Position numbers and translations under genes: made by a program
NCBI RefSeq assembly: GCF_026210795.1
Contig: NC_089440.1
Location: 248,001-312,000, forward strand
Reading direction: 5' to 3'
Length of the DNA stretch: 64,000 bases
From: Rhizophagus irregularis
Taxonomy: Eukaryota > Glomeromycota > Glomeromycetes > Glomerales > Glomeraceae
Notes under the pieces: model-generated
The model's database searches: none
The model's input: only the letters and a program-made list of their open reading frames with translations
What the model was told of the DNA's origin: nothing
Shown here: in pieces, positions 19,096 to 44,711 of the stretch
Numbering within the stretch: the stretch's first letter is position 1
Layout: every line of letters starts with the position of its first letter

Positions 19096-19820
19096 TTAAA
19101 ATCCATCTAGAGAACAAATTAGTAAATTAATTAGTTTGCTTTAAAAAGAAATCTTATTTATTTAAAAGCTTACCATCAGGAATTTCTAGTTCATCTTGTT
19201 CTTTTGAATGAAAATTTAAATTATTATATATTTCGTCATCATCTATAAAAAAATAAATATAATTAAAATAGCGTAAGAATTATTTATTATTATATAAAAT
19301 TTTCACCTACCGTCGGTATTAATATTTTGCCTTTTTATTTGTTAAGTTATTTCTAATAAAAGTCACGTTTAATAAATGAAATTGATATAAAATGAATTTT
19401 ATTTGTTAGTAATTTACTTACCATTTGAATTTATCTGCAATTTTTTAAATTCTTTGGGTAATTTTTCATTATAATCTAGATTAAGAATAAAGATATTTAT
19501 TATTATAGAAATATTGTTATTTCGATTATAAAATTTAAATATATTACCCTCAAAAGTATTAATTATTTTCGATGGTTTATTACTATTCTGCTCATTTGAT
19601 TTATTAAAGTCGTTAACTAAAATAAAAATTAATTATTAAACATTATTATATGAACACTGTAATGTTAATAGATACTTAACATTGTTAGGAATGTTAAAAT
19701 CATACAATTTACTATGAAACGCTATTAGTAGTAAATAAAGTATTTTAAAAATTAAATTCTTATAGTAACCAAAAATGGTAATAATTATTATTTATATGGT
19801 TAGTATACCTTCTTGTTCTT
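19096..19820 (-). other. Orphaned kinase tail exons (five mini-exons)
   Basis: Five exon-like blocks with good AG acceptors (the last ends at a stop, the others at GT donors), all readable in phase 1: 19809-19820 (12 nt, EEQE), 19548-19616 (69 nt, NDFNKSNEQNSNKPSK...), 19422-19475 (54 nt, DYNEKLPKEFKKLQIN), 19174-19242 (69 nt, DDDEIYNNLNFHSKEQ...) and 19096-19106 (11 nt, ending DGF-stop). Their internal lengths are multiples of three. They follow the kinase at 20017-21375 but are cut off from it by an in-frame TAA and by the lack of a clean donor near 19890. I infer that they once encoded its C-terminal tail. Confidence 0.6.
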
Positions 19821-20016
19821 CTATTATAATAAAAAGATAACATTAATAATGTAATTTAAAATAGATATATTTATTAATAAAATATTATACATTTATAACT
19901 TCTGTTGCATTTCTTGGTTCAGGTAGATTTTCAAAGTTATGAATTTTACTTGTAATTAATTTGCTACTCGTATAATTTTCTCCTATATTATTCATATCTA
20001 AATTATCCATTACTGA

Positions 20017-21375
20017 TTAAAATAATTCATCTGGCGTATTTTGATAATCTAAATAAATTTCATTTATTTTTCTCCAAAGTGCATTAGCATCAGGTCTTTT
20101 TAATGGATCAGCATCCCAACATTCTTTCATTAAATTTTTATATTCTAATGGAGTTCCTGGCACAATTTTTGGTCTTAAACCATTAATAACATTCATTACA
20201 ATATCATTTTCATGTTCATAATTTATAAATGGTGGTTGTCCAGATGAAATTTCCCACATAAGAATTGCAATACTATAAATATCAGATGCAAAAGTATATT
20301 CTCTTTCAACAATAACTTCGGGTGCTATGTAAGGAAGATTTCCATATATACTTGTTGAAGATTTATCAGCAGGTCCACAAAATCCAAGATCACTAATATA
20401 CCAACGATCATTAAATTGCGAAAATAATATATTTCCAGAATGCAAATCTCTATGAATTGCCTTCTCATCATGAATATAACTAAGTGCAAGGATTATTTCA
20501 TAAGTAATTTTAATTCTATCTTTCCATGTAAGTTGATTATGATTTTGTTGTAAATATTTTCTTAAATCTATATCCATTTTTTTCATTACAAGCATATAAT
20601 TTTTATTTGGTGGATTTTGTGTTAAACCAAAACACCGGACAACATTTGTCCATTTATTATTTATAGTTAAATGCGATTTAGCCTAAAAGACAATAATTTG
20701 TGAAATACTAGTGTTACTACAAAAATTGACTAATTTTATAAAATATAATAAAATTATACAAACCTCTTCAAACCAACTTTGATTTGCACTTTCAACGTTT
20801 TCTAACGTTTTAAGTACTACTTTTGCCACTATATTTTGTATTCCAGGTCTTTCATCCCTTTTTAATTGGTTTTTTTCAGAATCCCATTCTTCATATTCTC
20901 CATTAATCCAGTCTGCTGTATAAATTTCTGAAAATCCACCTTTTGTCAAATAATTAATATTTTTCAAATTGCTATACGGGATCCATTCAACTATATTCCG
21001 TGGTTCAAGTGATTTCATTTGACATTTCTGTATTAAATTATCAATATCATCATTTCCAGATGTCCAATTTGAAAAATTTTCTTTTAAATAATTGCGAACA
21101 CAATATTCACAATATAATGTAGCTAAACATTCTTGGTTACAATTTTCACAAATTCTTTTTGTTCCTGAATCAAAAATAACTTTATTTCGATCATAATTTT
21201 TAGTTAATAACCTTATTGCCTCGGATTTTTCTTCATTTGTAAGAATTTTATCAGCAAGAACTGTTAGTTGTAGGAACTCAAATTGTTTATGTATATCATT
21301 ATGAATTTTAGTATCAGTTAACATTGCTGCTCTTTTATTTGTTGCATAAATTAATTCATATCGAAGAGTGGACAT
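20017..21375 (-). CDS. TKL protein kinase, 425 aa, tail truncated by a stop
   Basis: complement(join(20017..20682, 20764..21375)) with an 81-bp phase-0 intron. The N-terminus has a CxxC pair module (CENCNQECLATLYCEYC, about 76-92) and the family linker NWTSGNDDIDNLIQK. The kinase domain starts near 145 (YLTKGGFSEIYTADW), with VVLK lysine, IHRDLHSGNIL catalytic loop, SDLGF replacing DFG, and APEV. The end of the C-lobe is intact (CWDADPLKRPDA). Translation stops at TAA 20017 after PDELF. The same frame stays open after that stop and encodes the family tail motif NLPEPRNATE near 19905-19930, so the TAA (probably from CAA) is a tail-truncating change. The catalytic residues look functional. The likely product is a Ser/Thr or dual-specificity kinase; the substrate is unknown. 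Confidence 0.85.
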
Positions 21376-22555
21376 AATGTAATTAATAAATTAAAAAGGG
21401 AAAGAAAGAATTACTGTATGTTTCAAGTTCGTTACTCAGATAAATTAGTAAATGCAAATTGTTGATCAAAACTTGTACCACCATAATCCCCACATGAATA
21501 GATCATAAGGCGCAGTATCAACGTTCGTATTTTAGAAATACAATTTGTGTGACAAACTTTATTATTTGATTCCGTATTGATTAATATTTAATTTGACGAA
21601 ATAAAAAATCTAACTTTCAAAGTTGATTGAGACTAAATTAATTAAATTCAATATAAATATGGTTGGTAAAAAAGGCCATCTTTTTAAAATCTATTTAAAT
21701 AAACAACATATCGAGTAACGGATATTAGTAACCATTCAATTTATTATTTTTCTTTAAAGAAATCATAAGTTAGAGAAGAAATTTTGTAGAATTATCATTT
21801 CTTCATTGAAATATGGATTACGTTACGAATAAATAGTTGAATTAAATATATAGTATAAATTGATAAAGCACTTTAAAAACTGGATAAATAAAGAAACCAT
21901 TATATTGAATTAAGTATATGTAATAATTTCAATTTAACATTACAAATAAATTATTCTTTATTATAATATTCATTTAATGATTTTAGTAAAAACAAACGAA
22001 CATCAAATGTAAGTTTAACCTGCATTAAAGTAGACTTATAAAATATTACAAATTTAGAAAATATAGATTAAATAAGTGCTAGGCCTCAAAAAGATATATA
22101 GTTAGTTGCTCTTTGTGACAAACCATTCGCATTTTAACATTATATTCAATTATGCATAATTTTAAAATTTTTGCGTTTTGTCATTAAAAATAAAAATATT
22201 TGCAACGTTTATCATAATATTAACGGATAAAAATTTTTGTTATGTGCAAATGATAATTAGTTTTTTGATGCCTTTATTATAATATGATTTTAGTTAAAAT
22301 ATTTATTGATTTTCCATTATAAAATTTAAATTACAATTTTTATAATTTTATAATTTAAACTTATAATATTAAATAGTGTTGTAACAATACGCAACGAATG
22401 TAACTTTGAAATCTCATAGAATTTCTTCACTTTTTTTTTATAAAAATTCAGCTTTAAAATCTTGTGTCCAAATTATTAAAAACAAGAGTCGAATATTTTT
22501 AAAAACATCATACTTTTAATAAAATCATATCTTATTAATTTTTTAAATTAAAACC
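21376..22555. other. Spacer, no gene seen
   Basis: AT-rich DNA upstream of the minus-strand kinase. No ORF, repeat or RNA gene is supported. Confidence 0.4.
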
Positions 22556-22559
22556 TTGT

Positions 22560-22822
22560 TTTTTTTATAAAGGCTTTTTTGATAGAATTTCTTTGGGAAT
22601 TTTTTTTAATAAAAAGATTTTTTTTTGATGAAAAATTCGTTAGAGAATTTTCTTCATTGATAGGGATGGATAATTTCGTTTAAAAATTTTATTTTATTTA
22701 ATAGAAATTTCATTGGAAAATTTTTTTTTAATAAGATTTTTTTTTTTTTGACATATACCTAATTTGTTGTAACAATTTTTTTTAACAGGAGAGATTTTTT
22801 TTTGATAGAGAATTTATTATAT
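22560..22822 (+). repeat. AT-rich degenerate array, plus orientation
   Basis: Units of TTTTTTGATAGAGAATTT and AGAATTTTTTTTAATAGGAGAGA type, the same family and orientation as 1015-1645. It runs directly into the MITE at 22841 and then the pyrimidine tract at 22963. That is the same order as in the long-TIR element at 35795-37795 when read in reverse. Confidence 0.65.
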
Positions 22823-22840
22823 CATATTCCTGATTCTGGT

Positions 22841-22934
22841 GGTATCGGAACATTTCGCAGAGCTGAAAAATAATCTTTATTCATAATGCCCCTATTTTTC
22901 GGCAGAACGTCCTTTCGGCGAATGTCTTGTAACT
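22841..22934. mobile_element. 94-bp MITE, degenerate relative of the one at 31506
   Basis: The ends GGTATCGGAACATTT and, in reverse, GTTACAAGACATTCGCCG resemble the terminal repeats of the element at 31506-31648. The interior shares CCCTATTTTTCGGC and CGTCCTTTCGGCGAA. Flanks GATTCTGGT (22832-22840) and ATTTCTGGT (22935-22943) match at 7 of 9 positions, consistent with an old 9-bp target-site duplication as made by Mutator-like transposases. Confidence 0.6.
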
Positions 22935-22962
22935 ATTTCTGGTTGAAGTAAATTGGCGTTAC

Positions 22963-23290
22963 TTGCGTACTTCTCTTCATCTTCCCATCACTCCTTTTCG
23001 TCTCCCATCACTCCCTTTTATCTCTCACCTCTTCGTCTCCCATCACTCCTTTACATCTCTCATCATGTCCTATTTCTCCTTTTTGTTTCCTATCACTTTT
23101 CATTCTCTTTTTTTCCCTTTCATCTTCTATTACTTTCTATTACTCCATTGTTATTTCATTTTTTTATTAGCATCTTTCGTTTCTTTTATTTGTATCACTT
23201 CAATAAAAATAAATATGGTGATTTTTTTCTTTAAAATCGTAAATGTGTGACTTAAATTTTAATTTTTGCAAATAAAATTTCATTAAATAA
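22963..23290 (+). repeat. Pyrimidine-rich dispersed repeat, copy 1
   Basis: CTTCTCTTCATCTTCCCATC is followed by repeated CACTCC..TTCGTCTCCCATCAC units. It then passes into TTATTAGCATCTTTC and TAAATATGGTGATTTTTTTC and ends with AAATAAAATTTCATTAAATAA. The reverse complement of 36110-36490 matches it over its whole length. Overlapping ORFs of 93 and 95 codons arise from the bias and are not genes. Confidence 0.75.
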
Positions 23291-23699
23291 GATTACTTTG
23301 AATAAATATGCTTGCAAAAAAAAATTGTTTTAAAAATTTTTGGAATAAAATTTTAAGTTTAACTGATCAAAAATTAGATATGGCATATTTGAAAAAAACC
23401 CGGGCGATGATCACCCAGGCGACGTTTAGCAATCCCTAATTTTTATTTATTTATATATATTAAAAGTATTTAAAATAGTAAATTTTCAAATAATGTTTTT
23501 ATGCCAATTATTTAATATTACTAATGAAAAAAAGAGAGACACTTCAAACAAATTTCTGCTATATACTTTTTTAATTATTTTAAAAACTTTTTAATTTATG
23601 TTATGAATATTATATGATTATATAATAAGAAATTTGTAAAAAATTTCTATGAAATTAAAAAAATATTAAAATTAAAAAAAAAATGCTAAAAATTAAAGT
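23291..23699. other. Spacer, no gene seen
   Basis: AT-rich stretch between the pyrimidine repeat and the next array. Nothing is supported. Confidence 0.4.
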
Positions 23700-23910
23700 T
23701 ATTCTTCACTGAAATTCTCTATCAAAAAAAAAAAACTTCCCTGTTAAAAAAATTTACTAACGAAATGATCTATCAAAAAAATCTTACCTATTAAAAAAAA
23801 AATTCAAATTCTCAGCGAAAAAATTATTTATCTTCCTATTAAAGAAAAATTCTTTAATAAAATCCTCTATCAAAAACATCCCCCTATTAAAAAAAAATTC
23901 TCAAAGAAAC
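23700..23910 (-). repeat. AT-rich degenerate array, minus orientation
   Basis: Units of GAAATTCTCTATCAAAAAAA, then CCTGTTAAAAAAATT or CCTATTAAAAAAAAATTC. They are the reverse complement of the arrays at 1015 and 22560. With 22560-22822 it forms an inverted pair around about 0.9 kb. Confidence 0.65.
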
Positions 23911-23960
23911 TAATTTTTGGCAAGATAAAATTATCAAGTATAGTTGGATTAAATTAAATA

Positions 23961-24194
23961 CAGTTGGACAAAAACATCAAGTACAGATAGACACGGACAG
24001 ATAAAAATACCAGGCACGAACAGATAAAAACATCAAGCATCATGTACAGATAAAACATCAAGCATGTACATCTCAAGCATGGGACAGATGAAAATCAAGC
24101 ATAAACAGGTAAAATGTCAGATACGGAATGACATTTTGTCTAGCCATGCTTGATTTTTTGCTGCACAATGTCTGATAATTTTGTCCAACTCGAC
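23961..24194. repeat. Short tandem units bounded by an inverted repeat
   Basis: About five variants of ACAGATAAAAACATCAAGCA lie in tandem from 23961 to about 24110. The left edge AGTTGGACAAAAACATCA and the right edge, read in reverse, AGTTGGACAAAATTATCA form an inverted repeat. A MITE-like origin is likely; no target duplication was found. Confidence 0.5.
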
Positions 24195-25055
24195 TTACCA
24201 TATTATATAATTAAAAGGTTGTGGATTTTAAACTAGGCTAAATTTTTACGAAATATAATGTTTTCTTTAAATTTTATGAATTATTTTCAACCATCAAAAT
24301 TAAATTTAATAAACAAAAATTATTAACCATTATAAATAGTATGATTTACTGAAGAATATAAAGTTATAAACACTCTAGTAATACCGGTATATCATGGTTG
24401 GTGATAATTATATAATTTGAAATATTTTCAACTGGTAATTTTTTCAAATCTATTATATTCAATCCATTATAAAAGGTAACCAAGAGGGAATTTGGAAATT
24501 TTGGATAGTTTTGATTTTAAAGTAAATAAGTAATATATAATGGTAAATATGATAAATGCAATTCCCCTTTTTTCAATCTTTTTGCTAAATTTAATTCAGA
24601 TATTAATTTTATATAATGTTGTCATATGAATTATATATAATAATTTAGCTTATTTTGATATGTTTTTACTAAATTCGTAAATAATTATTAATTAACCTGA
24701 CTTTTTTTGCATTTCTTAAACATGATAACATCAACAGTATTAACGTTAATAATTTTTTTTTATTTTTTCAAAGATTAATATTGAAGGTTAAGTTTTTTTG
24801 AACAATACATTAGTCATTTAAATTCTCTTAATTTTCCATATAAATAAACGGAGAACAGATTTTATTTTAACCTTTTAAAACTTCATACTTATTAATTTCT
24901 TTATACAGTGATTAAAATAAATATTAATCACATGACTCAGTAATGCAATATTACAAATTAAATTGTGTCTTTCTCATCTCATTTCATTATTTTTTTTTAC
25001 TTTTTTTATTTTATCCATAATCTCTGTATAATGTATTTTTTATTTATTATTTATT
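24195..25055. other. Spacer, no gene seen
   Basis: AT-rich DNA. Its end lies just before the short kinase N-terminal relic. Nothing else is supported. Confidence 0.4.
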
Positions 25056-25172
25056 ATGGAAGAAATTAAACTCAGTGATGATGAGTTTAAAGATTTCATT
25101 ACTAGTCACATAGAGACTAATTTTATTTATACTGGAAAAAGTAAATTTACTCTAATTTGCCGTAATGATTGA
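25056..25172 (+). pseudogene. N-terminal relic of a TKL kinase
   Basis: A 38-residue reading frame starts MEEIKLSDDEFKDFI. It matches the first residues of the intact kinase on the other strand at 27794 (MDEIKLSDDVIEQIKDFI). It ends at TGA 25172 with no zinc module or kinase domain following. The first coding bases and start codon were copied, in inverted orientation, about 2.7 kb away. A functional micro-protein is possible but not supported. Confidence 0.55.
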
Positions 25173-26194
25173 AAATGCTGGATCTTTCCAGTTTTGCCAT
25201 TTTTATACCTGTTTAACAGTATGATTTATTTCATTTCAAATTGGAATTACTATTAAAAAGTATAAATTTTGTTTACCACTGATTTATATGTTAATAAGTT
25301 TAATCATTTATGGATGTCTTGTTTTATAAATTGGTGAACAATTGTTAAAAATAATTTTTTTCTTTGACTGATCATCAAAAAAAAAGAGAAAATTTGAATG
25401 ATTTTTTTATCTGAATTGCAATCTAGGTAATTCAGATTAGATCTTTTGTATAACTAACATTCAGATCTGATTTCATCGTGTCAATTGTAATACAAGAAAT
25501 ACATTTTCTCTCTTTTTTAACTATGAATACCAGCTTTGCTAATTTATTGCCTGTAATGTTTAATCTAACAACGTAAAGGTAATATTAAACACAAAAATTG
25601 TACTACAAATTAATCAATAATTCAAACTTATAATATGTTTAATTTGATTTACTAATACACGAGAATTAGCATTGGGATTTAAGATACTTCTGAATCAAGC
25701 CAAACTTTTCTTTTGACATCCTAAGTGCGCTAGAGGACCTTTTTATTTCCTGATACCTTAAATTTGTCCTTTTAATCAAATGTTATTTCATGTTTAAATT
25801 TCATCACATGGTATATGTGGTTATTTAGATAATTTTATTTTATTAAAAAATAAGATATATTTGTTAATTAAAAAAAAACTTCAATAAATAATCAAATGAT
25901 ATTTTAATAAGAAATTATGTGTAATTTTTTCTTTAATCCACTACGACGATAAAAAATAGAGAAATCATTCCTTTTTCTCTTAAATTTTTAATAGAGGATT
26001 CTAGAAAAGTAAGTTAATGTATTTTCTTTAATGTATAATAAATATATAAATATATATAAATATAATTTTTTAAACATATAAATCTTATAAACTTAAAACA
26101 AGTATAAAATACAGTTATAAGGTTAAATTTGATGAAAAATAAAATTTTGCTTTTACATTATTTTAATATTCTATTAACTATGTAAACAAAAAAT
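25173..26194. other. Spacer, no gene seen
   Basis: AT-rich spacer between the kinase relic and the 3' end of the next kinase. No gene or repeat is supported. Confidence 0.4.
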
Positions 26195-27794
26195 TTAATT
26201 GCAATCTTCGGAATTAATATTGAGTTTGGTAAAATCAACTTTTATTGATTCTAATGTATATAAAAAAGCCAAAAATAAATATTGTATCAAAAATACGATT
26301 TAATAAAACAAATTAAATTCGATATAATTTACCTGAATATTCTATTCCAAGTAAATCATCATTACTATCGGCATTTTTTGGTTCTGGAAGATTTTTAAAA
26401 TCTAAAATTCTACTTGTATAAACTGCTTGAGGATGTGTCATATATGGGAGTGTACTTGTAGAAGATAATGGTGATTGAGCTGTTGAAAATGATGAGGACG
26501 ACTTTTTATTAATTTCATCTGCTTCTTTTTTTTGCTCATTGAGCACAGAATCTAAATAACTCTTAACATATAAATCACCAAATAACTTTTGTAATTCATA
26601 TGAATTAGGTCGTTTTAAAGGGTCTGCATCCCAACATTGATTAATAATGTCAAAAATTAATTGAGGAATTTTATAATTAGACTTTGGCCTCAACCCATTA
26701 CAAATTTTTATTGCTAAGAAATCATCATGAGCTATATCATAATAAGGAGGGAAACCTGTACAAATTTCATATGCAATAATTCCAAGTCCATAAATATCAC
26801 TTTCTTCAGTATATTCTTTTCCTCTTAAAACTTCTGGAGCTACATAAGGTAATACACCATATATTTTTTTATTACTATTTTGAGTATTTTGAGAGGATTG
26901 TACATTTGCTGGTTGACATAATCCCAAGTCAGTAATATAAGCTTCATCGTCAAAATTACTTAATATATTTCCACAATGAAAATCTTGATGAATTAATCCT
27001 TTATTATGAATATCATTAAGACCAAGTGCAATAAGATATAAACTTTGTAACTTTTGATTCCAATCCAGTGAAATAAAGTTATTGTTCAAATGTTGTCTTA
27101 AGCTACCACTTTTTAAATCCATCACCATTATAAAATTATTTGTTTTTGGATCTTTGGTAATACCAAAACAACGAACTATCCAATTAGTATAACGTGCTAA
27201 AATATGTGTTTCAACCTTAAAAGAAAATTACAGTTAGTTTAACATTTATAAAGGCTAATAATACTAAAATCAGTAAAAATATCTTACTTCTTTTAAAAAA
27301 TCTGCTGTAATATCTTGGGAATTATGTAAGCACTTTAAAGCGACTTTTGTTTCACCTTTCCTTTCCAATTGATTATTGTTATATTTAATTTGCCAAGGAC
27401 CATCTTTCCAAACTGCTTTAAAAGTAGTTCCAAACCCCCCTTTTGCTAAATATTCAACATCTTCAAATTTATCATATTCAATCCACTCTATGATATGGTC
27501 TGTATCCTCAACTTTTAATTGTGCTTTTTGAATAAATTCATCAACGTCATGATTTCCACTTGTCCAATTTTTGAAATTTTGTTTAAAATATTGTGATTTA
27601 CATGACCGACAATAATAAAAACTAGATTTAGGCTGCTTACAATTTTTACATAAACCATAGTTTTTATAACGTTCTTTTAATTCTTCGTCTGTTATTAGTT
27701 TATCAATTAACGATTCTTGTTCTTTAGTTAATTCACGATAGATGAAGTCTTTTATTTGTTCAATAACATCATCACTTAATTTAATTTCATCCAT
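26195..27794 (-). CDS. TKL protein kinase, 481 aa, three exons
   Basis: complement(join(26195..26250, 26333..27215, 27288..27794)), 1446 nt; introns of 82 and 72 bp. The N-terminal zinc module CKNCKQPKSSFYYCRSC is at about 49-65, followed by the NWTSGNHDVDEFIQKAQL linker. The kinase domain starts near 118 (YLAKGGFGTTFKAVW), with VALK lysine, LIHQDFHCGNIL catalytic loop, TDLGL and VAPEVLRGKEYTEESDIYG. The C-lobe ends CWDADPLKRPNS. The HRD Arg is Gln; the catalytic Asp and Asn are kept, so activity is plausible. The tail has the family motif HPQAVYTSRILDFKNLPEP. The last exon (phase 1, 56 nt) encodes ESIKVDFTKLNIN and the stop; without it translation would run into the intron. The role is cytosolic signalling, with an unknown substrate. 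Confidence 0.9.
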
Positions 27795-28194
27795 TTTAAT
27801 AAATAATTTTTAAACAAAAAATATGTTAATAATTCATGTGTAAAAATTACTAAAAAGTAATAAAGAAAAAAAAAATGAAAAAAAAAGTGGTGAAACGTTA
27901 TTCTATATTGAAATGATTTCAAGATCGGCAACAAAATTGTAAAACAAGACTAGTTAAAATACACAAAGGAACACAATAATCTGATCGGCAATTAAATTTA
28001 TCCAATTTTGGCAAATAAGGGTTTTTATTTAAATTTTCTATAATAGGTAAGATCAATTGACGAAATAAATAAATAAAATAAAATATAGAGTATTATGTAA
28101 TTAAAAAGTTGTGTATTGCAACGAAATGAATTTTTTTCATAAGTAAAACTAAAATTTATGATAAAATAATTTATATATTGAGAAAAAGGTAAAG
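27795..28194. other. Spacer, no gene seen
   Basis: AT-rich upstream region of the kinase at 26195-27794. Nothing else is supported. Confidence 0.4.
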
Positions 28195-28326
28195 AATGTA
28201 TATATTCGTTATTTTGAATATGATAAATTTATTCAAATAGTTGAAATTGGTAAAGGAGCTTTTGGTAAAGTGAGTAAATCAAGTTTTGTTAGTACAGGAT
28301 TAGTCGCACTATTGTTAATCGTATAA
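28195..28326 (+). pseudogene. Kinase N-lobe relic (glycine loop)
   Basis: An open stretch reads RYFEYDKFIQIVEIGKGAFG and then KVSKSSFVSTGLVAL. GKGAFGKV is a canonical GxGxxG nucleotide-binding loop. The frame then hits TAA (about 28324) where the VAIK lysine should be, and the sequence passes into a palindromic AT repeat. It belongs to a different kinase subgroup from its neighbours (FEY...VEIGKG type). Only about 40 residues survive. Confidence 0.6.
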
Positions 28327-28344
28327 TCATGTGACCGGCGATCA

Positions 28345-28490
28345 TGTTACGAATGTTGCAAATGTTACGAATGTTTAATATGTTTAACATGTTAAACATA
28401 TGCAACATATTTAATATATAACACATATTTAACATATTACATTTGTTAAATATGTAGCATTTATTTAATATTTTAAACATGATTAGCATA
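28345..28490. repeat. AACATATTT / AAATATGTT simple palindromic repeat
   Basis: Repeated short words (ATGTTACGAATGTT, TTTAACATGTTAAAC, CATATTTAACATATT) form a low-complexity, partly self-complementary block. The reverse-strand ORF rich in Met, Asn and Leu here is a by-product. Confidence 0.5.
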
Positions 28491-30271: not shown

Positions 30272-30419
30272 TTAACTTAAATAAATAAATAAATAATATA
30301 AAATAAGTAAATAAAATAAGATAAAATAGTTTACCACAAGAAAAAAAAATAAGATTAAATAAATAAAACAAAACAAAATAATAAAATTCAATAAAGTAAA
30401 ATAAAATATTTTTTCTATA

Positions 30420-33270: not shown

Positions 33271-35094
33271 ATGATGTCTGACAATATTTCCTTAAGTTGG
33301 CTAAGTATATTTAAAAAATGTAAAAATTGTGAGAATCATGAAACTTGTAAATTATGTTATGAAATATTCAAATCTAATTTAAGTGGGAACAAAGTCATCG
33401 ATGACATTATCAGAAATACACGAGTTAATTATGTTAAAGGTAAAATTTGTAGGATATTGGAATTTGTTCCCTATGATCAATTCAAAAATATAGAATTTAT
33501 TGCCGAAGGAGGATTTAGTAAAATTTACAAAGCTATTTGGGTTGATGGTCCAATTCATAATTACTACTACTCTACTGTTCGTAAAAATAATTATACAGTT
33601 GTTCTCAAAAAACTTAATAATTCTAAAAACATTACATCCAAGGAACTGAACGAGGTACAGTCCATACAATATTTCTAATTTTCAACATGATGATGATAAA
33701 TTAATATTTTTCTATTTATTTAGTTTAAGGTATATTATCAGATTTTATCAAATAGATATACATTTAATGGCATTAGTATATGTTTTGGAATTACTCAAGA
33801 TCCTATTACTAAAGATATGATGATTATCATGCCATATTATAGTTCAGGTGATTTGATACATTATTTAAGTAATAACTTTTATAATATTAATTGGCGGATA
33901 AAACTGCGTAGATTATTTTATATAATATATGGACTTCTAGAAATGCACAGGGTAGAAATTATCCACAGGGATTTACATAGTGGAAATATCTTTTCTGATG
34001 AATTTGAGTCGTACATAGGTGATCTGGGAATAAGTAGATCTGCAATTGAATCAAATAATGATAATGAGAAATATGGTATTATTCCTTACATGGCACCAGA
34101 GATTTTTCAAGGACAAAAATATACTGAAGCTTCAGATATATATAGTTTTGGAATGATTATGTGGGAATTTATGACAGGTAGAAGACCTTTCTGGGATGAA
34201 ATTCATGATATAGAACTTATAATCAAAATATGTGATGGTTTACGACCACCAATTGTTACAAATGCACCCAAAGGATATGTTGAATTAATGAAAGAATGTT
34301 GGGATTTTAATCCGGATAATAGACCAACAGCTAATGATATATTCAGTAGAATTGATAAAATACATAGGGAGGAAAGTATCTTTAATCCAACTAAAATTAT
34401 AGAATCATCAGATATTGGACCTGTAATAACTAATCACTTAGGCGCCATTTATAAGAGTAGACCATTAAGTCACTTGATTCAATCTGCAATGTCTTTAAGG
34501 AGTTCAAGGAGTCAATCTATCGGTAACAAATTTTATTAATTACAACGCATTTTTATTATAAGAAAAATTTTAATTATTTATTTTAGATCCATTTTATTAT
34601 TATCAGTAATTATTCAGTTTTTGTTTAATGGTTTTTTTATGTTCTTACTTATAATTAATATTGTTTTAAAGGTAAAAGAAAGTTTGAAGATGATTCAGTT
34701 GAAGATAGTAATGACAATGGTATGGTAATTAATTTAATAAATTATTATTTTTAATATATTTTCTACTATTTAATTCACATTCATAATTATTTAGAACAAA
34801 GTATTAAAAAAAGAAAATTTCTTGAAAATGAAAATAATGGTAAATAAAATTACATATTAACAAACAACATATTTCATTTCATAATTTAATTGATTTTTAT
34901 GATTTTATAGATTACTTTACAAAAGAAATTGAATTAGATATTAATATGCGCTCTAACCAACCTCGTGATAAAGGTAAGCAAATATACATTTATAAAATAT
35001 TAGTCAACATTATAAAATTTTTATCTAATTTTTGTTTTCAATATACGGATACGTCACCAAAGAAATTGAACTTGATATCAATCATATTCTTTAA
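33271..35094 (+). CDS. TKL protein kinase, 456 aa, six exons
   Basis: join(33271..33654, 33724..34522, 34672..34719, 34795..34839, 34911..34973, 35063..35094), 1371 nt. The N-terminal CxxC module is CKNCENHETCKLC (17-29). The kinase domain starts near 78 (FIAEGGFSKIYKAIW), with VVLKKL lysine, IHRDLHSGNIF, GDLGI replacing DFG, YMAPEIFQGQKYTEASDIYS and CWDFNPDNRP. All key residues are present, so it is probably active. The C-terminal motif GAIYKSRPLSHLI is the family tail. Four small phase-1 exons follow: KRKFEDDSVEDSND, QSIKKRKFLENENN, DYFTKEIELDIN and a final EIELDIN repeat. If exon 2 were read through, it would end after 240 codons. The last acceptor (CCAAAG) is the least certain; the expected upstream site reads ACG instead of AG. 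Confidence 0.88.
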
Positions 35095-35794
35095 ATTATA
35101 ATGTTTAAACCCAAATTTTTTACTTATTATGCAGATCTATAAATATTTAACATACAAATATATTTATATTAAACCATAGATGGATTAATTTTATATGAAC
35201 TTTAATCGTTGAATAATGGCTAATGGCTTAACCTAATTTTTTATTACTTATTCATTTTCATGCATGATAGCAAATGAAAGTTAAAAAATTGGGTCTCATC
35301 AAAATTTGTAGTTAGTATATTAAATAAATGAATTATATAGTTTAGAATTTCTGGAATATGAAAATTGAAAATTATATTTTGTATCGTCTAACTAAAAAGC
35401 TTTAATTGCGAAAAGTTTAACGATTAAAAATGGTATTTTATTATCTACATAAAAAACTGTAATTTTATTAATTATTAACCACGTAAAAGAATCGTCACTT
35501 TTTCTTTTGAAACGCGTTCGAGTTAACCAAAAATCAAAAAAAAGTGGAACAAATGATATGAAAGTTATATATATGATGATATACAATAATTTTGTAAATA
35601 AACATGTTACGTAAGACAAATAGGATTTAAATCAGATTTTTTAATAAAGTGTTTCATAAGCGCTTGATTATAAATTCAAGAATATTCCAATGTATACCAT
35701 CAAATTTTTTTTTTTTTTTTTTTTTTTTGTCATTTTAAAGAAAAATTACAAAAAAAGGAATGATCTACATTATATAACATTTAGTAAAGAACAT
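35095..35794. other. Spacer, no gene seen
   Basis: AT-rich, with a 22-base poly-T run at about 35707. It ends at the left terminus of the long-TIR element. Confidence 0.4.
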
Positions 35795-36109
35795 ATGGAA
35801 AGCCGCCATGGTCAAAAGTGCGTAGCAAAACATAGCGTGTATACGCTATGTTTTGTAACGCGTATACGTTATATTTCACGGTGGGTTACCCCTGTTCTGT
35901 CTGTTTCAGGGGTAACCTGTTGCGTTTAATACGCTATATTTCATAGCGTTATATACGTTATATGTTATGACGGGTACCCGTTATAAGAAATGGCGGGTAC
36001 CTGTTATAAGGAATGGCGGGTACCCGTTATAAGAAACGGCAGGTACCCGTTATAAGAACTGGCAGTCAGCATATTAACTTTTGATAAACATCAATAATGA
36101 TAATTATTT

Positions 36110-36490
36110 ATTTAATGAAATTTTATTTGACAAATATTAAAATTTAAGTCACACATTTACGATTTTAAAGAAAAAAATCACCATATTTTTTTTATTGAAG
36201 TGTACAAATAAAATTAACAATAACAATAAATAAAAAAGATAAGTAAATTACAATGATCAAGGATCAAGGAGAAAGATGCTAATAAAAAAATGAAATAACA
36301 GTGGAGTAATGGAAAGTAATAGAAGATGAAAGGGAGTAAAAAAGAGTAATGAGAAGTGATAAGAAACAAAAAGGAGAAATAGGACATAATGAGAGATGAA
36401 AAGGAGTGATGGTAGACGAAGAGGAATGATGGGAGACGAAAAGGAGCAATGGGAGATGAAAGGAAGTGATGGGAAGATGAAGAGAAGTAA
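36110..36490 (-). repeat. Pyrimidine-rich dispersed repeat, copy 2
   Basis: The reverse complement of the repeat at 22963-23290, including the GATTTTAAAGAAAAAAATCA edge and repeated GAAAAGGAGTGATGGGAGAC units. Here it is inside the long-TIR element. The 106-codon reverse ORF over it is a composition artefact. Confidence 0.75.
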
Positions 36491-36534
36491 AAATTTATAA
36501 AAATTGTAAATTTAATAAAAAATTTTCCAATCAA

Positions 36535-37420
36535 TTTTTTATAAAAAAAAAGATCTCTAATGAAATTCTTTATTAAAAAAAATTTTCAAGCCAAAATTCT
36601 CGATACACTTATTAAAAAAAAACTATTTTCAATAAAATTTTCTATTAAGATTTCTAAACAAAATTCTCCATCAAAAAAATAAAAAAATTTTTCAACAAAC
36701 AATTCTCTAATGAATTCTCAATCAAAAAAAATATCCCGATTAAAGAAAAATTCAAAGATTCTTACCACCTATTAAAAAAAATTCTCAAAAGAATTTCTAT
36801 ACCAAAAAAAAAACTCCTCTCCTATTAAAATAAAAAATCTTTACCGAAATTCTCTATCAAAAAAAATCTCCCTGTTAAAAAAATTTACACTAACAAAATT
36901 ATCTATCAAAAAAAAATTCTATGATGAAATTTCTATCAAAAAAAAAATATTCTCAGCGAAATCTATTTAAGAAAATTCTTTAATGAAATTCTCTATCAAA
37001 AACAATCCCCCTATTAAAAAAAAATTCTCTAATAAAATTCTTCATCAAAAAATACTTTCACCTATTAAAAAAATTCCCAAAAGAAATTCTTTATTAAGGA
37101 AAACTCCTTCAATTAAAAAAAAATTTGTAACAAAATTCTCTATCAAAAAAAATTTCACTTGTTAAAAAATTTTCTAACGAAATTATCTATCAAAAAAAAA
37201 TCTTCTCTATTAAAAAAATTCTTCAAATAATTTTCTACAAAAAAAAAAAAATCTCAAATAATTCTCTATCAAAAAAATCTCTCCTGTTAAAAAAAATTGC
37301 TCCAACAAATCATGTATACGTCAAAAAAAAAAAAATCTTATTAAAAAAAAATTCTCCAATGAAATTTCTATCAAATAAAAGTTTTTAACGAAATTATCCA
37401 TCAAAAAAAAAAAAAAAAAA
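36535..37420 (-). repeat. AT-rich degenerate array inside the long-TIR element
   Basis: Units alternate ATTCTCTATCAAAAAAA with CTCCTATTAAAAAAAATTC, the reverse complement of the array at 1015-1645. It is the longest copy in the window (about 0.9 kb) and ends in a poly-A/poly-T patch near 37400-37440. Confidence 0.7.
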
Positions 37421-37971
37421 ATTTTTTTTAAAAAAAAAATTAAATGGCGGGTACCCGATATGTGAAATAGCGTTTACCCGATATGTGAAGCGGCGGGTAC
37501 CCGATTTGTGAAGCAGCGGGTACCTGATATATGTGAAGCGGCGGGTATTCAATCCCTTGAAAATTTTAAAATTTGGTCCAAAATAAATTAATAAACCGTT
37601 ATAATATAAAGCGTATACACGTTAAATTATGTAGCGTATACACGCTGTTTTTTATGGCGGGTTACCCCTGAAATTGACAGGTTAATCCAACAGAACAGGG
37701 GTAACCCACCGTAAAAGATAACGTGTATACGCTATGTTTTGTAGCGTGTACACGCTATGTTTTGCTACGCACTTTTGACCACTACCGCTTGCCATAAAAA
37801 CACGATCGAACTATACTATAATATTATTAGGGACTTAAGATTTTACGTTCAAAAGAACTATCTACCATCCCGCACATCCAAATAGATTACCCGCATAACT
37901 ACTACCATTCATATGAACTTCGGTAATGTTGTATAAGAACCCACCACAACACCTTTTACTACTACTATAAC

Positions 37972-38806
37972 TAGGGATTGGAACCGTCAAAAAAAAGCTT
38001 AATTGGTTAATAACCGGTTAATTAGAGCGTCTAATCAGTTAATAGTCGGTTAATTAATCGGTTAATTAACCGGTTAATTTGTAATGAGGCTAACCGGTTA
38101 ATAACCGGTTAATATATAAATTTTATATTTTAACATGTGTTTAGAGGCCTATTTTTTGTATTTTAACACGCGTTTAAAGATAAATTTTTGTGTTTTTAAC
38201 TAAATAGTATTATTTAAGAGTAATTTCTGGTAAATATTTATATTAAAATGTATACATTAGTAAAAAATTACATACAATATATTGTAATTACTTACTACCC
38301 AGTCATGCAGTAGTCACCGGTATCAGCACTAAGTTGAAAAGTTTTTTAATTATATTTTTAGTTCTATCCGAAATTCCATTCCAATTCTGATGGCCACTGT
38401 AGTATTCAAATTTTTGCATTTTTTCTTATTTAAAATACTATACCTGATCATATGCTGATTTCTGCATAAATCAAGGTTATAACTTTAGAATATTTTAACA
38501 TAAATAATGTTAAATTATAAATATCATATGCAATATATTATATTAAAATATAAGATTGCAGGTTTATCATCGAATCTATTAGGGTGGGCAAAATTAAAGT
38601 TAATGCTAGTAAAGTTAAAGTTAGAAGTTGGCTAGGAATTACTAATTTAGGATGATCTGTATTTTAACCGGTTAAGTTAGCCGGTTAATTAGTCGGTTAA
38701 TTTAACTGGTTAAATTAACCGGTTAACCGTTTTTTGAGAGGTCTTAACCAGTTAACCGCCTTAACCGGTTAATTAACCGGTTAACCTTAACCGGTTTTAA
38801 TCCCTA
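37972..38806. mobile_element. 835-bp non-autonomous hAT-like transposon
   Basis: Termini TAGGGATTGGAACCG and, in reverse, TAGGGATTAAAACCGG form short inverted repeats. Flanks ACTATAAC (37964-37971) and ACTATAAT (38807-38814) match at 7 of 8 positions, fitting the 8-bp target-site duplication of hAT elements. Both subterminal zones are packed with AACCGGTTAA/TTAACCGGTTAA palindromes (37990-38110 and 38665-38800), the kind of repeated site that binds a transposase. No coding region is present, so it would need a transposase supplied in trans. Confidence 0.85.
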
Positions 38807-38814
38807 ACTATAAT

Positions 38815-39660
38815 TACAAAAAATAATAATAAAAATAAAACTACGAAACACTACTGTAATCTACTGTGTTACCTCAAAATAAATATGATTTTGAAATCGA
38901 AGTATTTTCTTAGTTTTTGATATTCGCGTTTTATCAATAAACCGTTCTTTACCAAAATGTTGTTTTTTAACATTTTTATCTATTCCCAACCCTCTATCAA
39001 TTTCGTTAAGTTTATTACACCGTATTTTCTAAAAAACCATAGACTTATCTAAATGTATACCATTAAAATGTTACGTTATTCGTTATTTATGAAGTAAAAA
39101 ATTAATTGGTCCATCATTTCCTATTTCATAAAAAACGTGACATGGTCTAGAATAATATTTAATACCATAAACTTGATTCTGTACTACAATATATCGAGAA
39201 GTAAGTCTGCAAGAAATTTTTACACGTGCACCTCATTTAAGATTTCATCAAATGTTTCATCACTAAAGAAAAAGAAGAAAGGAGATCAAAAAAATTTCTT
39301 ATACAATATTATTAATATTAATTAGAGTAATTTGGGCATAGGTGAGCTGAGTTAAATATGCATATTTGAGTAAATAATAAAAGAAATTGTACCATGTATC
39401 AGTATCAGTTTTACTTACAATCCGATATTTGATAGTAATTAAAAAGCAAGATTTTTGTAATTATAAGTAAATAAGTATATTTTAATTTGGCTCATTTATA
39501 TAAATTCCTCCTAAAATTAAAGTATTGAAAATATAAAAAAAATTTGTGATTTATTTAGTATGTGATTCATTTTGTTCATATGATCTGCTGTGTCTTAAGA
39601 TCTTGAGACTTGAGTTAAGACCCGCTTGATATCGGCAAGTCATGTTGTACATCTAACCCA
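38815..39660. other. Spacer, no gene seen
   Basis: AT-rich; nothing supported apart from short ORFs without motifs. Confidence 0.4.
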
Positions 39661-39669
39661 ATTCCAGTT

Positions 39670-40255
39670 ACAAATGGTTCTTTCTTTTTTTAAAAAAAAT
39701 CCTCTTTTCTCTTTCGAAACACCTTCTTTTCCTTTTTTTTCTTTTTTATAAAATTTTTCTTTTGTTCTTTTTATTCTTTTTCCATTTAGATTTGGTTTTT
39801 TTTCCAAAACTGAAAATTATTATTATTTTTTTTTTATTAAATAATCTTAAGACTTATATTATTTTTCAGTCTTTTTTTTGACCATATTATTAATTTTTTT
39901 TTGAATTTTTTTTCAGTCTTTTTGGACCGAATTATTGTCCTTTTTTTCAAAATTTTTTTTTGGTGCTTATTTTTTTTAAAAAAAACCGATTTCTTTCTTT
40001 ATCCTTTTCTTTTCCCCCCAATTTTTTTTTCTTTTTCTTTCAAATTTTTTTTATTTTTTCTTTCTTTTTCCTTTTCGGTTTCTTTTTTTAACCCAATTTT
40101 TCTCTTTGTTCCTTACCACAAATTTTTTTCATTTTTATTTTTTTGGATTTTTTTATTTTTTTTGTTTTTTTCCGGTTCCCCTTTTCTTTTTTCTGTTTGA
40201 CTTTTTTCTTCCAAACTGAATTTTTTTTTCCCAAATACATTCTTTCACCATTTAG
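39670..40255. repeat. Pyrimidine-rich low-complexity tract
   Basis: Long T-runs are interrupted by CTTTTTC, CCAATTTTT and CGGTTTC words on the plus strand. Overlapping frames on both strands (Phe-rich forward, Lys-rich reverse) result from the composition. It resembles the tract at 9720-10060 and may share an origin; both have a GC-richer edge. Confidence 0.5.
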
Positions 40256-42160
40256 GTTTGGATCAGTGATCAGATCGATGTTGCGGTGCCACCTTTTTTC
40301 CCGATTCTTATTATTAATAATAATACTTTTTTGTATCAAACTAAATAATAGACTAACATTATTACTTATTTATTCATTTTTTGTAACAATAGATCATTAT
40401 AATTAATTTTTCTGGAAATTTATTTTTTCATATTAATAATTAGTGAGATATTTTTTTTTAGAGGGTGTAATTTTTTTTAATGCTACAATGGAATTTTTTA
40501 AGATAAAAAAAAAAGATTTTTTTTTGTAACAATGTAACAATAAACTACTTATAAAAAATTGTTTTTGTAATGAATTTGTAAATTTCACAGTACTGCAACA
40601 TTTGTTTCGTGTGATAAATAAAATTCACATTTAATAATAATATTTCATATACTATATGACACTTGTACACAATTCATTTTTATTTGTATAATCATATAAA
40701 TTGTGTAATTTATTATATTTATTTTCTACTAATCCCATCATAATAATAGTAAAAAACTAGACCTATTCACACTGCATGGCAAATAAAATATAATTGTGTT
40801 ATTATTACTCTCTTACTTAATGGCCAAGTATCATCCTCGGCGCAACGCGACGGGTTACGCCTAGTTTTTTTTTAAAAAAATGAATCTTTACTCTGGAGTG
40901 CAAGAATAATTAATAAAAAAAATCCACTTCTTAAAAAAAAATATTTTTTAAATAATATAAGAAGTTTCTTTATTAAGTTTAAAAAGTTTTTTAAAAATTC
41001 TTTTTTTTAAAAAAAAGTTTTTTTAAATTGATTTAAAATGAAAAAAAATCAAAAAAATCTCTAATGTTGTAAATTCATGCATCTTGCATTTTTTTCTTCA
41101 ATTAAAACCCGATTATCACTCGTCTATTAAAAATTTATATATAAACTAGCAGTTGCACCCGGGAGTAGTAGTATTACTATATAATATTAAATTTTTAGTC
41201 ACAATTAGAAGCTCACTTTGATTAATAATTAGATTATGAGAGTAATAAAATATAAATTAATTTAAATAAAATAATATGCAGGTGAATATTGTTATGTATC
41301 TATATAATTAAAAACAATCTTATCAAAAAAAATATTTTTATGTGAATTTATTAGTCAAAAAATAAAAACAAACTAACTAAAAAAAAATTTGTTGATACTA
41401 AAAAAATTTTTACACGAATTTATTAGTCAGAAACAATATCATTGACTAAAAAAATCTCATCAAACATCAAAAAATTTGTAGGACATAGTTCTAATTTGAT
41501 TATAGTTTTGATCCGATCTAAACTAAAAAAGAATAATAATATTCTTTTGGGTTAACCAAAAACTTTGATAAATTCCGATCCAATAAAAATATAATAAAAA
41601 AAGAATAAGAAAAAATTTTGGTTAAAGGGATAAAAAAATTATTAAAAAAGGTAGTTTCAGTTTTTACGGTAAAATCCGAAAATAAAAAAAAATTATTATT
41701 GTCTATCTAATAGAAATGGTTAGTTGTGGTTAACTAAGAGAGTGGTAATAACTGACAATTAATATACTTTTTTTTGTTAGTATTAATTTATTAGAATAAA
41801 AAAAAATCCAGTTAAAATTTTAATTAACCGGAAATGTATCAGTTAAAAGATTTTCTTAATTATGATATGATAAATACGAAATAGATCGGGCGCAAGAATA
41901 TCACACTTTTCAATGTTACACAATTCAAATTATTTATATGGGTAATCTAAATATGACAATTTTTTTTTAAATTCTGATTTTCTCTTCTTAGAATAAAAAA
42001 AAATAAAAAAGTATATTTATTTTTCAATTATACAGTATTATTTCTAATACCAGAAAAGTTGAATATGATATGCTACATTTATGTTTCAATCTAAAAGTTG
42101 ATTGCATAAAAGAAATAACTGAAATAACTGGAATATTGAAGAAGACCCAATCAAAACCAT
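40256..42160. other. Spacer with two short GC-richer motifs
   Basis: Mostly AT-rich. At 40838-40864 a GC-rich patch (TCGGCGCAACGCGACGGGTT) and at 41148-41172 the motif CTAGCAGTTGCACCCGGGAG stand out. Motifs like the second flank some repeat families in other eukaryotes, but I cannot assign an element. No gene is supported. Confidence 0.4.
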
Positions 42161-44711
42161 TTATCTAAAAATCGAAACTTTTATTCCATTAAATAATTCA
42201 GATACTATAAATCATTTAAAGCGAAAATTGATTTCTTAAAAATAAAAATAATACATAAAAAATCAATGAATATTTAAAAATATAATTTATGATATATATG
42301 GATGGATATTGATAAATAATTATAGAAATACGGCATTCAATATACTATATATCTTGCGTGCGTATTCCAACTACTGGATGTCATTTAAAAGTTTAACACG
42401 TTTTCCTATTTTTAAATATTTTAAAATTGATTAAAATAATATTAAAAGAAAATATAAATAAATATCATTAAAGCAAATGAATAAATATTTACCACCACTA
42501 TTACTATTGTCTTGGGTTTCAGAATTTAATTCTTCATTGTTTCTCTTTTTTAAAGAGGTTGAAGAATTTTGAATTGTTATATCTTGTGATGATAAACTAA
42601 ATTACAATTAAAAATCAATTAATTAGTACATAATATAATAAATTCAAAATATAATTACAAATACCTTTCAACGTCTATGTCAAGCTCTTTTTCTTTCGAA
42701 ATATAATTATAATTATAATCTAAGAAAATAATATTCATTTAAAGATTACTGTATATAATAATTTTCAATTGCAATTAACTCTTTTAGCAATACCTTGTTT
42801 ATCGCAAAATGAAATTGCTGAGGATGAATTAATGGATGAACATTTAGAAATTATATCACTTAATGGTCTACTTGTATAAATGGCTTCCGGGTGACATTTT
42901 TCAGCAAATTCAGGACCAATCATCTTTGATTCTATCAATCTGTTTCTTTTTACTTCAGCTTGTTCAAATTCTGCTACGTATTTATAAGACCACTTACGTA
43001 AATTTGAATAAATTTCTTTTATAGAAGGCCTTTTTTTTGGATTAGGGTCCCAACAACTTTTCATTAAAGTGGCATAACATTCTGGTGTATCTTCTGTAAT
43101 TTTTGGTCGTTCTCCATCAAGAATTTTATAAATGAGATTATGGTCATGTTCAACATTAGCAAAAGGTTTACAACCTGTTGTAAGTTCCCACATAACCATG
43201 CCAAAACTATAAATATCAGTTTCTTTAGAAAATGCAGACCCTTTAAATATTTCTGGTGCAATATAGGGTATAACTCCGTATATTTCATTATTTGATGATT
43301 CGCCATTTGTAGATTGTGATAATCCTAGATCCCCAATTTTCCATTGAATTATATCAAGTAATATATTTCCGCTATGGAAATCTCGATGTACAAATGTATT
43401 TTTATGAATATATTCAAGTCTAAATGAAAAAAAGAAGTTAAAATTTAAATTTCAATAATATAAAAAATTATATTTAAATATAATTACCCTTCTGTAATTT
43501 GCAATAAAATAAATAGTTTTTGATTATTCCATGTAATATTTGTAAAATTCTTTTGTAGATACTTATGTAAATCTCCTTCTGGCGCATACTTCATAATTAA
43601 TGTATAATCTTCTAATTCAGGATCTCTTGTAAAACCATAAGTTTTAATTATATAATTATCAAATTTATTAAAACACTGTTGATTTGATCTTAACTATAAA
43701 ATTTTAAGATTTAATAGCCAAAGATTAAGGACTAAATTAATTAATAAAAAAATTAATCACAAAAATATTAAAAATATTCACCTCATTTAAGAAATATTTA
43801 TTATTAATTTTAGAATTTTCAAATCTTTTTAAAATGACAGTTTTATTATTATTTAACCAAGTTGCTTTATATATAATACCATATCCTCCTTTTGTTATTT
43901 CTTTTACATCTTTAAATTCAGAATATGGTATCGACCTAACTGGGATTGCAATCTTTATTTTTTTAAAAATAGAATATAATAGAGTTAATGGTTCAAAAAC
44001 CCTATCAATGCTTTTTATAATATTTGCAATCTCTAAATTTAAGTTATCAATGTTGCCATATGAAATATCATCAAGAAAGAAATCATCAAATACATTCCTG
44101 TCTATAATAAGTGATATTCTTTTACATTTTTTGCATGTGGTTTGACCTGTAAGTCCAAAAATTATGTTTGTTGTTAAGCAATATCTGCATCCGGTATAAA
44201 ACATAGGACAATTCCCACAATACTTTTGACAATCTGATGTAAATGTTAACTCAGAATGACATAAATCACAATTAGAATTGTCATGCCACCATGGTAAGTA
44301 AAGAATTAGAATTTGCTTTTTAAACAAGGTTGATTCTATCCATTCAAATGAAATTAGATAACAATTTGAGCATAATACAAAATTATCCTTTGTTTGAAAT
44401 GGCTTAATACATAAATTACAATAATGGGAATATTTCCTATGCATAAAATTTAAAGTTTTCACGCAATTCCCACAAGTTCCTTGCGACGACTTTTTACAAT
44501 GTACACACATCATAATATTTGTACTATCATAATGCGATACGTAACATTTTTTACAATATTTTTTCCAAGGACAAAAAAGCTTCCTACTATATTCTTCTTC
44601 ACAATAAACACAATTTTCATCAGCCGTATTAAAAGAAAAAAATTTAATTGGTATAAGACTAGATTTTAATTTTGGTGTTGGATCAAAAGAATCATCGTTT
44701 ACAAGGTTCAT
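42161..44711 (-). CDS. TKL kinase with long Cys-rich N-terminus, 654 aa, six exons
   Basis: complement(join(42161..42204, 42493..42596, 42665..42719, 42794..43419, 43488..43693, 43782..44711)), 1965 nt. Residues 34-196 hold about ten CxxC pairs (for example 34/37, 53/56, 69/72, 98/101, 114/117, 148/151, 165/168, 175/178, 193/196), a probable multi-zinc array. It includes the block LYLPWWHDNSNCDLC and GCRYCLTTNIIFGLTGQ. The kinase domain starts near 272 (ITKGGYGIIYKATW), with Lys295 in VILK, FVHRDFHSGNILLD, GDLGL, IAPEIFKGSAFSKETDIYS and CWDPNPKKRP. The tail has CHPEAIYTSRPLSDII, then mini-exons encoding DYNYNYISKEKELDIDVE and SLKKRNNEELNSETQD. The last exon (VSELFNGIKVSIFR-stop) is the least certain. 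All catalytic residues are present. Confidence 0.85.

Follow-up and report, generated by a model that had tools for sequence, protein, structure and literature searches.

In the arbuscular mycorrhizal fungus Rhizophagus irregularis, many protein kinases of the PF07714 family probably end in tails encoded by serial, mostly symmetric mini-exons, bound to the kinase lineage, varied by local duplication and decay, and yielding short linear motifs. The starting point is a stretch of 64,000 nucleotides (the window; NC_089440.1, positions 248,001 to 312,000, assembly GCF_026210795.1), part of contig 12 in a genome of 146.7 Mb and 32 contigs. It harbours four kinase loci, named here g1 (21375-19096, minus strand), g2 (27794-26195, minus), g3 (33271-35094, plus) and g4 (44711-42371, minus). 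In the scheme that we propose, C-terminal tails are encoded by successive tiny exons with short introns, mostly in phase 1, lying between them. Because most of these exons begin and end in phase 1 (1-1), an exon-intron unit could be duplicated or dropped without breaking the frame; a unit would be lost when a splice site disappears or when it fuses with its neighbour. The sequences show that this occurred repeatedly: many genes of one subfamily carry tandem arrays grown from a 45-nucleotide (nt) exon, one gene of a second carries a comparable array of short exons, and an exon pair stems from duplication in a third; g1 and g3, in the window, contain decayed cassettes. Each subfamily, as shown for five tail classes in one sample, retains its own cassette set, passed on with the kinase, the exons presumably encoding short acidic or hydrophobic peptides and, in the subfamily of g3 and g4, basic ones that resemble nuclear localisation signals. 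We infer that these peptides are most likely short linear docking or localisation motifs, the number and kind of which vary between paralogs.

Small exons in phase 1 beyond the kinase domain

The four loci match the PF07714 profile, the open reading frames of their C-lobes scoring 111-126 bits for a cut-off of 23.1, and HRD-type motifs are seen in the translations of the window, with HQD as the version of g2. The match agrees with a preliminary description of the window, which had called the four loci kinases of the tyrosine kinase-like (TKL) group. The architecture ascribed to them there, a large kinase exon followed by a string of exons of 11-104 nt, is also seen, save that g2 has a single exon of 56 nt and no string, and that the frame of g1 stops at a TAA ahead of the SR motif after which the kinase exon was said to end.

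A genome search with PF07714 gave at least 147 matches (145 of 4199 candidates scored), of which 142 were taken on. Removal of eight whose match was longer than 680 nt left 134; the first 60 among these form a set chosen blind to the tails, but skewed to high-scoring kinases; L015 and L053, each made of one long open frame, were excluded from the counts. Forty g3 relatives, drawn from 126 matches that include g3 itself, and 20 relatives of g1 (out of at least 150 matches) were added by hand. Six loci selected for their exon arrays stand outside the resulting 122-locus count, and 25 further stretches were added by hand as well. Tails were predicted in the 122 loci with a Viterbi procedure that combines codon usage with splice matrices built from the intron side only, and is therefore phase-neutral. 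As controls, the sequence downstream was dinucleotide-shuffled five times per locus, with the first donor kept, and the reverse complement was submitted as well.

The outcome is a marked excess of symmetric exons: 209 of 285 internal tail exons are 1-1, against 55 of 288 in the shuffles and 5 of 30 in the reverse complement. The excess is found in every set (51 of 70 exons in the tail-blind loci, 85 of 113 in the g3 relatives, 68 of 94 in the g1 relatives, 5 of 8 in the window). Predicted tail donors are in phase 1 in 343 of 403 cases (473 of 750 in shuffles, where the first donor was kept), tails contain on average 3.30 introns versus 1.23 when shuffled, and the gain in predictor score exceeds 8 at 86 of 122 loci versus 33 of 610 shuffles. 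Among the 58 tail-blind loci, the first tail intron is in phase 1 in 53, at least one 1-1 exon is found in 31 and at least two in nine. The intron that separates the N-lobe from the C-lobe in the kinase body behaves differently: in 20 genes examined it could be assigned 17 times and lies in phase 0 in 16 of them, a phase-0 alternative of lower score existing for the exception, L006. The phase-1 bias is therefore specific to the tail. Tail introns are short (median 78 nt), and TACTAA[CT] is present in 73 of 430, for 20.0 expected from single-base shuffles, the median distance to the acceptor being 30 nt.

The preliminary description had made genome-wide recurrence of the motifs, together with an excess of phase 1, a test of its proposal; in the genome sample, recurring peptide classes and the 1-1 excess were both found. 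Its statement that most tail exons are 1-1 holds for the genome sample, but fails for the internal exons of g4, which are 1-2 and 2-1. Clean processed (intronless) copies, which would have attested splicing, were not found among the few candidates opened after queries with joined-tail proteins: in L127 an open frame continues across what looks like an intron as far as the last long cassette, and in L061 a join of 9 coding nt connects two cassettes.

Tandem duplication of exon-intron units

The subfamily characterised by EPKNSDDYYE offers the clearest arrays. There, the exon E-SLQIDISQLNIN is repeated together with its intron, at intervals of about 120 nt and with five copies at most: four in L028 (spaced by 125, 115 and 115 nt), four in L022, four in L056 and five in L063, where Tandem Repeats Finder (TRF) reports a period of 121 and 4.6 copies. 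The arrays of L022 and L028 are alike position by position. Within a gene, the copies of this SLQIDIS unit are identical at 0.81 in the exon and at 0.71 in the intron (32 pairs), for 0.53 +/- 0.04 between random 70-mers. A strict pattern, AG followed by E-SLQIDISQL and its close variants, finds 71 matches in the genome, versus none for the reversed pattern; they correspond to 57 loci, 14 of which have two copies within 600 nt. In L061 (contig 26, 2886387-2886470), two cassettes lie 54 nt apart and the 9-nt joint between them reads in frame, so that an intron too short to be spliced appears to have turned coding.

Forty of the 71 matches lie in contig 2, at about 4.5-5.9 Mb, a gene cluster that could promote unequal exchange.

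There are further cases of repetition. L131 carries a 224-nt duplication, with 223 of 224 positions identical (TRF: period 224, 2.0 copies, 100%), the unit being made of the kinase-exon end, an intron and a mini-exon, fused in frame; it is, to judge from its sequence, a recent event. L009, from a different subfamily, has an array of DISKELPD exons, and a two-exon unit is repeated in L064-L066. Among the relatives of g3, the YxTKExxLDI exon is present twice in many genes, the profiles of its two classes, C4 and C5, being related at p=0.001, the smallest value that the test described below can give. Finally, as an instance of loss by fusion, several genes of clade C, the g3/g4 subfamily, hold a KRKF segment within the kinase exon.

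Peptide classes and their inheritance with the kinase

The preliminary description saw one acidic and hydrophobic motif in all four loci. In fact, YxxKExxLDI is common to g3 and g4 only. When motif classes are compared with column-shuffled profiles (21 pairs, uncorrected p), the class of g2, A (SIEAIDFT), shows no relation to C4 (YxTKExxLDI; p=0.15), and more generally neither A nor B shows a relation with C4 or C5 (p 0.14-0.23); A is weakly related to B (SLQIDIS; p=0.023), the DFTKLNIN of g2 resembling the SLQIDIS class, and the two basic classes C2 and C3 are weakly related as well (p=0.02). The class of g1, D4, with three sequences, stands outside the profile comparison. Its motif DYNEKLPKEFKKLQIN corresponds, for example, to SDSEKLPEEFIKLQINSN in L110 and to NNKKLSKLFKKLQINSI in L112, and its resemblance to the g3 motif is therefore not conserved. 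The tails of the window thus fall into one class for g3 and g4, another for g2 and a third for g1, where the tail lies behind the in-frame stop; a single motif for the four loci is unsupported by the profile tests, from which D4 was left out.

The basic cassettes fared better. The pattern K[KR]x[KR] is that of the classical nuclear localisation signal. It occurs in 33 of 49 tails of the g3/g4 subfamily for 4.5 expected, an enrichment in keeping with the signals first noticed in the window, and is found elsewhere in none of 8 tails of clade A (0.1 expected), 2 of 23 of B (1.1), 1 of 20 of D (2.3) and 2 of 14 unclassed tails (0.3).

A tree of 64 C-lobes, obtained by a quick method with support from the Shimodaira-Hasegawa-like approximate likelihood ratio test, requires four changes to account for five tail classes, which is the minimum, when shuffled labels require 23.8 on average. 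It shows, for these five classes and this one sample, predicted cassettes inherited with the kinase lineage rather than traded between subfamilies, and the idea that cassettes are exchangeable between kinases is not supported. Within a subfamily, predicted cassettes mostly come in the same order, as judged by eye.

Coding constraint

Paralog pairs aligned as DNA (125 pairs, 70-98% identity) provide a test of coding through their insertions and deletions (indels). Multiples of three account for 89 of the 141 indels of tail exons and for 124 of the 159 of the kinase exon, compared with 294 of 1404 in introns. This is stronger evidence for coding tail exons than the ratio of the proportions of nonsynonymous and synonymous differences (pN/pS), which is 0.27-0.45 in 7 of 9 peptide classes, where members are more distant. 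Read in either wrong frame, it is near or above 1 for B (0.96, 1.05) and D2 (5.40, 1.11). Divergence by codon position shows a mild constraint, with 0.067/0.061/0.098 in the tail exons of clade D, versus 0.113 in introns, and 0.087/0.104/0.143 in those of clade B, versus 0.111.

Alternatives to lineage-bound, duplicating tails

Several observations weigh against the account given so far. All tail junctions are predictions from DNA, and exons modelled by hand in g1, g2 and g4 were missed or altered by the predictor. The loci are paralogs and their counts are not independent, which is why a nominal p-value for phase is given no weight. The tails of g4 and L008 depart from the 1-1 rule and, in L064-L066, the repeated unit is 1-1 but its two exons are 1-2 and 2-1. 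The SLQIDIS unit is nearly as similar between genes (0.77 in the exon, 0.66 in the intron; 464 pairs) as within them, so that many duplications are old, and in L061, which counts among the 14 double loci, the copies are not separated by an intron that could be spliced. Tail classes were assigned by hand from the peptides, 18 of the 64 rows of the tree (g1 one of them) being classless and uncounted; class C, the support of which is only 87, unites g3-like and g4-like tails despite their differing cassette order, and classes C4 and C5 overlap in members. Constraint, to be sure, is uneven. It is weak among the recent paralogs of clade C (0.090/0.081/0.100 by codon position, versus 0.114 in introns), and little or absent in C3 (pN/pS 0.80) and D5 (1.05, five pairs). 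The choice of class members by likeness of their peptides pulls the class values down, and one wrong frame scores as low as the proper one or lower in C2 (0.40 vs 0.44), C3 (0.40 vs 0.80) and D5 (0.64 vs 1.05).

An unlikely alternative, but one to be kept in mind, is a combinatorial code, the preliminary proposal stripped of its exchange, in which cassettes would be alternatively included and a single gene would produce tails differing in localisation or partners. Most internal exons being symmetric, skipping them preserves the frame; furthermore, in many of the 60 loci (their number was not counted) an early stop lies past the kinase exon, and a retained intron would create a tail-less end. 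Yet there is no sign of skipping in the sequence, cassette order is mostly constant within a subfamily, and non-symmetric exons are found in g4 and L008 as in the L064 type. The preliminary view that any subset of exons could be skipped in frame is consequently apt for the symmetric majority and wrong for the internal exons of g4, neither of which, being 1-2 and 2-1, can be skipped alone.

We also consider it unlikely that the tails are largely unconstrained ends undergoing neutral decay, their arrays being ordinary local repeats devoid of function. The weak constraint among recent paralogs, the uneven wrong-frame controls, the splice sites lost in g1 and g3, and four loci for which no tail was predicted (L029, L057, L099, L106) all go in that direction. 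However, indels in multiples of three within tail exons do not, and peptide classes are still recognisable, and similarly ordered, across divergent paralogs.

Going further than lineage-bound tails varied by duplication, arrays of tandemly duplicated phase-1 mini-exons might make the copy number of one docking peptide tunable for each kinase, splicing picking how many are displayed. This is a rather improbable, speculative extension. If true, it would amount to a valency and localisation code, driven by splicing and duplication, that would extend to hundreds of kinases in a fungus living in symbiosis with plants.

Exon shuffling, with cassettes exchanged among kinase genes or subfamilies by recombination in phase-1 introns, is very unlikely: it requires the 1-1 symmetry that is found here (PMC8001218, accessible text), but the five classes need no more than the minimum number of changes on the kinase tree, which disfavours exchange between subfamilies for these classes. 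Exchange among close paralogs within one class is possible. As for chance AG...GT pairs mimicking small exons, splice signals are short, the genome is AT-rich and the predictor does find introns in shuffled tails, but internal tail exons are much rarer at each locus in the shuffled and reverse-complement controls, which have no 1-1 excess to match, and the SLQIDIS pattern was never found in its control; such an artefact is hardly credible.

Known systems

The expansion of PF07714 kinases in Rhizophagus irregularis is not new (PMC6123716, PMC8647823). Within the accessible text of these articles, no other motif is as frequent as this domain among the annotated genes counted as expanded and species-specific (PMC6123716), and copy number, transposon neighbourhood and methylation are described for the expanded kinases (PMC6123716, PMC8647823). 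The domain and the kind of expansion in this fungus and in other arbuscular mycorrhizal fungi are the same as here, whereas the present work deals with tail exons. Among top-ranked literature results, most subscription journals being outside their coverage, no report of tail exons in this family stood out, nor one of repeated tail peptides encoded by arrays of 24-45-nt exons in a fungal kinase family.

It is mainly in animals that tandem exon duplication and 1-1 modules have been described (PMC9013439, PMC8001218), and exon shuffling is treated as restricted to Metazoa (PMC8001218), as far as the accessible parts of these sources go. In tandem exon duplication with mutually exclusive exons, as in Dscam, adjacent homologous exons are duplicated with their intron and the frame is kept, as here; by contrast, the present exons are mostly of 24-45 nt and encode short C-terminal linear peptides in a fungal kinase family, and the 1-1 symmetry of tail exons does not impose mutual exclusion. 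Metazoan class 1-1 exon-shuffling modules share the symmetry of the present units (209 of 285), but these are short peptides, not folded domains, and a search confined to kinase genes found none that had moved from one kinase subfamily to another. A further parallel is with the kinases of the AGC group, the C-terminal tails of which carry a hydrophobic and acidic motif outside the kinase domain. The resemblance of the tails described here to them is one of description.

One fungal genome here offers many natural replicates of the duplication of 1-1 units, which range from a nearly identical 224-nt duplication to copies that are old, diverged and in decay; the family that holds them is one of the most expanded of this genome. 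With replicates of such differing age, the spread and death of frame-neutral exons become testable, and so does divergence of paralogs mainly via their tails. We know of no established function of the PF07714 family in symbiosis; subclasses defined by their tails would be a concrete handle on it.

The four loci of the window and their neighbours

Table 1. Exons and exon remnants modelled at the four kinase loci (positions in the window; lengths in nt; phases at exon start and end, or at the end only).
Locus	Feature	Positions	Strand	Length	Phase	Remark
g1	kinase exon 1 (N-lobe)	20764..21375	-		0 at end	open reading frame and donor
g1	kinase exon 2	20017..20682	-			in-frame TAA terminates before SR motif
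g1	post-stop continuation of kinase exon frame (YTSSKLITSK...NATE)	19899..20016	-			end donor (phase 1 in 8 paralogs) lost
g1	tail exon EEQE	19809..19820	-	12	1-1	
g1	tail exon AFHSKLYDFNIPNN	19680..19721	-			donor lost in g1
g1	tail exon VNDFNKSNEQ...	19548..19616	-	69	1-1	hand model; not picked by predictor
g1	tail exon DYNEKLPKEFKKLQINSN	19422..19475	-	54	1-1	
g1	tail exon DDDEIYNNLNFHSKEQDELEIPD	19174..19242	-	69	1-1	
g1	terminal exon DGF, stop	19096..19106	-	11		
g2	kinase exon 1	27288..27794	-	507	0 at end	
g2	kinase exon 2	26333..27215	-	883	1 at end	ends after YTSRILDFKNLPEPKNA...EYS
g2	sole tail exon E-SIKVDFTKLNINSEDCN, stop	26195..26250	-	56		hand model; predictor chose a different terminal exon
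g3	kinase exon 1	33271..33654	+		0 at end	
g3	kinase exon 2	33724..34522	+		1 at end	ends at SRSQSI
g3	DPFYYYQKN cassette remnant	34587..34606	+			cassette and its donor both disrupted; cassette present in relatives
g3	basic cassette 1 GKRKFEDDSVEDSNDN	34672..34719	+	48	1-1	
g3	basic cassette 2 EQSIKKRKFLENENN	34795..34839	+	45	1-1	
g3	YxTKExxLDI cassette DYFTKEIELDINMRSNQPRDK	34911..34973	+	63	1-1	
g3	second YxTKExxLDI exon GYVTKEIELDINHIL, stop	35048..35094	+	47		terminal; no AG acceptor in g3
g4	N-terminal exon (Cys-rich region and N-lobe)	43782..44711	-	930	0 at end	
g4	kinase exon 2	43488..43693	-	206	2 at end	
g4	kinase exon 3	42794..43419	-	626	1 at end	ends after YTSRPLSDII
g4	tail exon DYNYNYISKEKELDIDVE	42665..42719	-	55	1-2	identical phases in L008
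g4	tail exon with basic patch SLKKRNN	42493..42596	-	104	2-1	
g4	terminal exon GKRVKLLNDIQ, stop	42371..42405	-	35		hand model; predictor chose another; L008 ends with KKHVKISNETEE, stop

In g3, one open frame crosses the three 1-1 tail exons, and the terminal exon would keep it. The acceptor of this last exon, missing in g3, is present in most of nine aligned relatives (L089 is rearranged there); in the closest ones (L083-L086, L097) the predictor does not use the terminal exon either. The hand models of g2 and g4 both splice in frame, and the pattern of the g2 tail exon is found at 11 places in the genome, g2 itself being one of them, versus none in the control.

The kinase frame of g1 is cut by the in-frame TAA (20019-20017), and the gene lacks two splice donors found in all 8 aligned paralogs (8 of the 20 fetched). 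It is therefore probably a decayed gene copy, and its tail exons are probably remnants. The end of its kinase exon, used as a query, gave at least 150 matches including g1 (150 of 386 candidates scored); the majority extend to the end of the query, NATE. A tandem satellite in L129 (contig 1, 648000-650400), the period of which is about 1016 bp, with a self-match of 0.82 at that shift, contains in each of its four listed units a stop-containing copy of a tail exon of clade D, of the EQDELEIPD type.

In g4, the kinase is preceded by an N-terminal Cys-rich region (44711-43782) with many CxxC pairs, longer than in g2 and g3. Elsewhere in the window, genes with a TLDc domain are seen at 2473-3687 and 11127-12287, and a similar third open frame at 54833-56002. 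A transposase of the Mutator-like element (MULE) type with a FAR1 DNA-binding domain is encoded at 61391-62992 on the minus strand; kinase genes of Rhizophagus irregularis adjoin such elements according to the accessible text of PMC8647823. At 49146-50351, finally, an open frame starts with what looks, by eye, like the end of a kinase C-lobe (CWDGEPNNRPT) and continues in the same exon with Sel1 repeats, another solution to the tail within the same superfamily.

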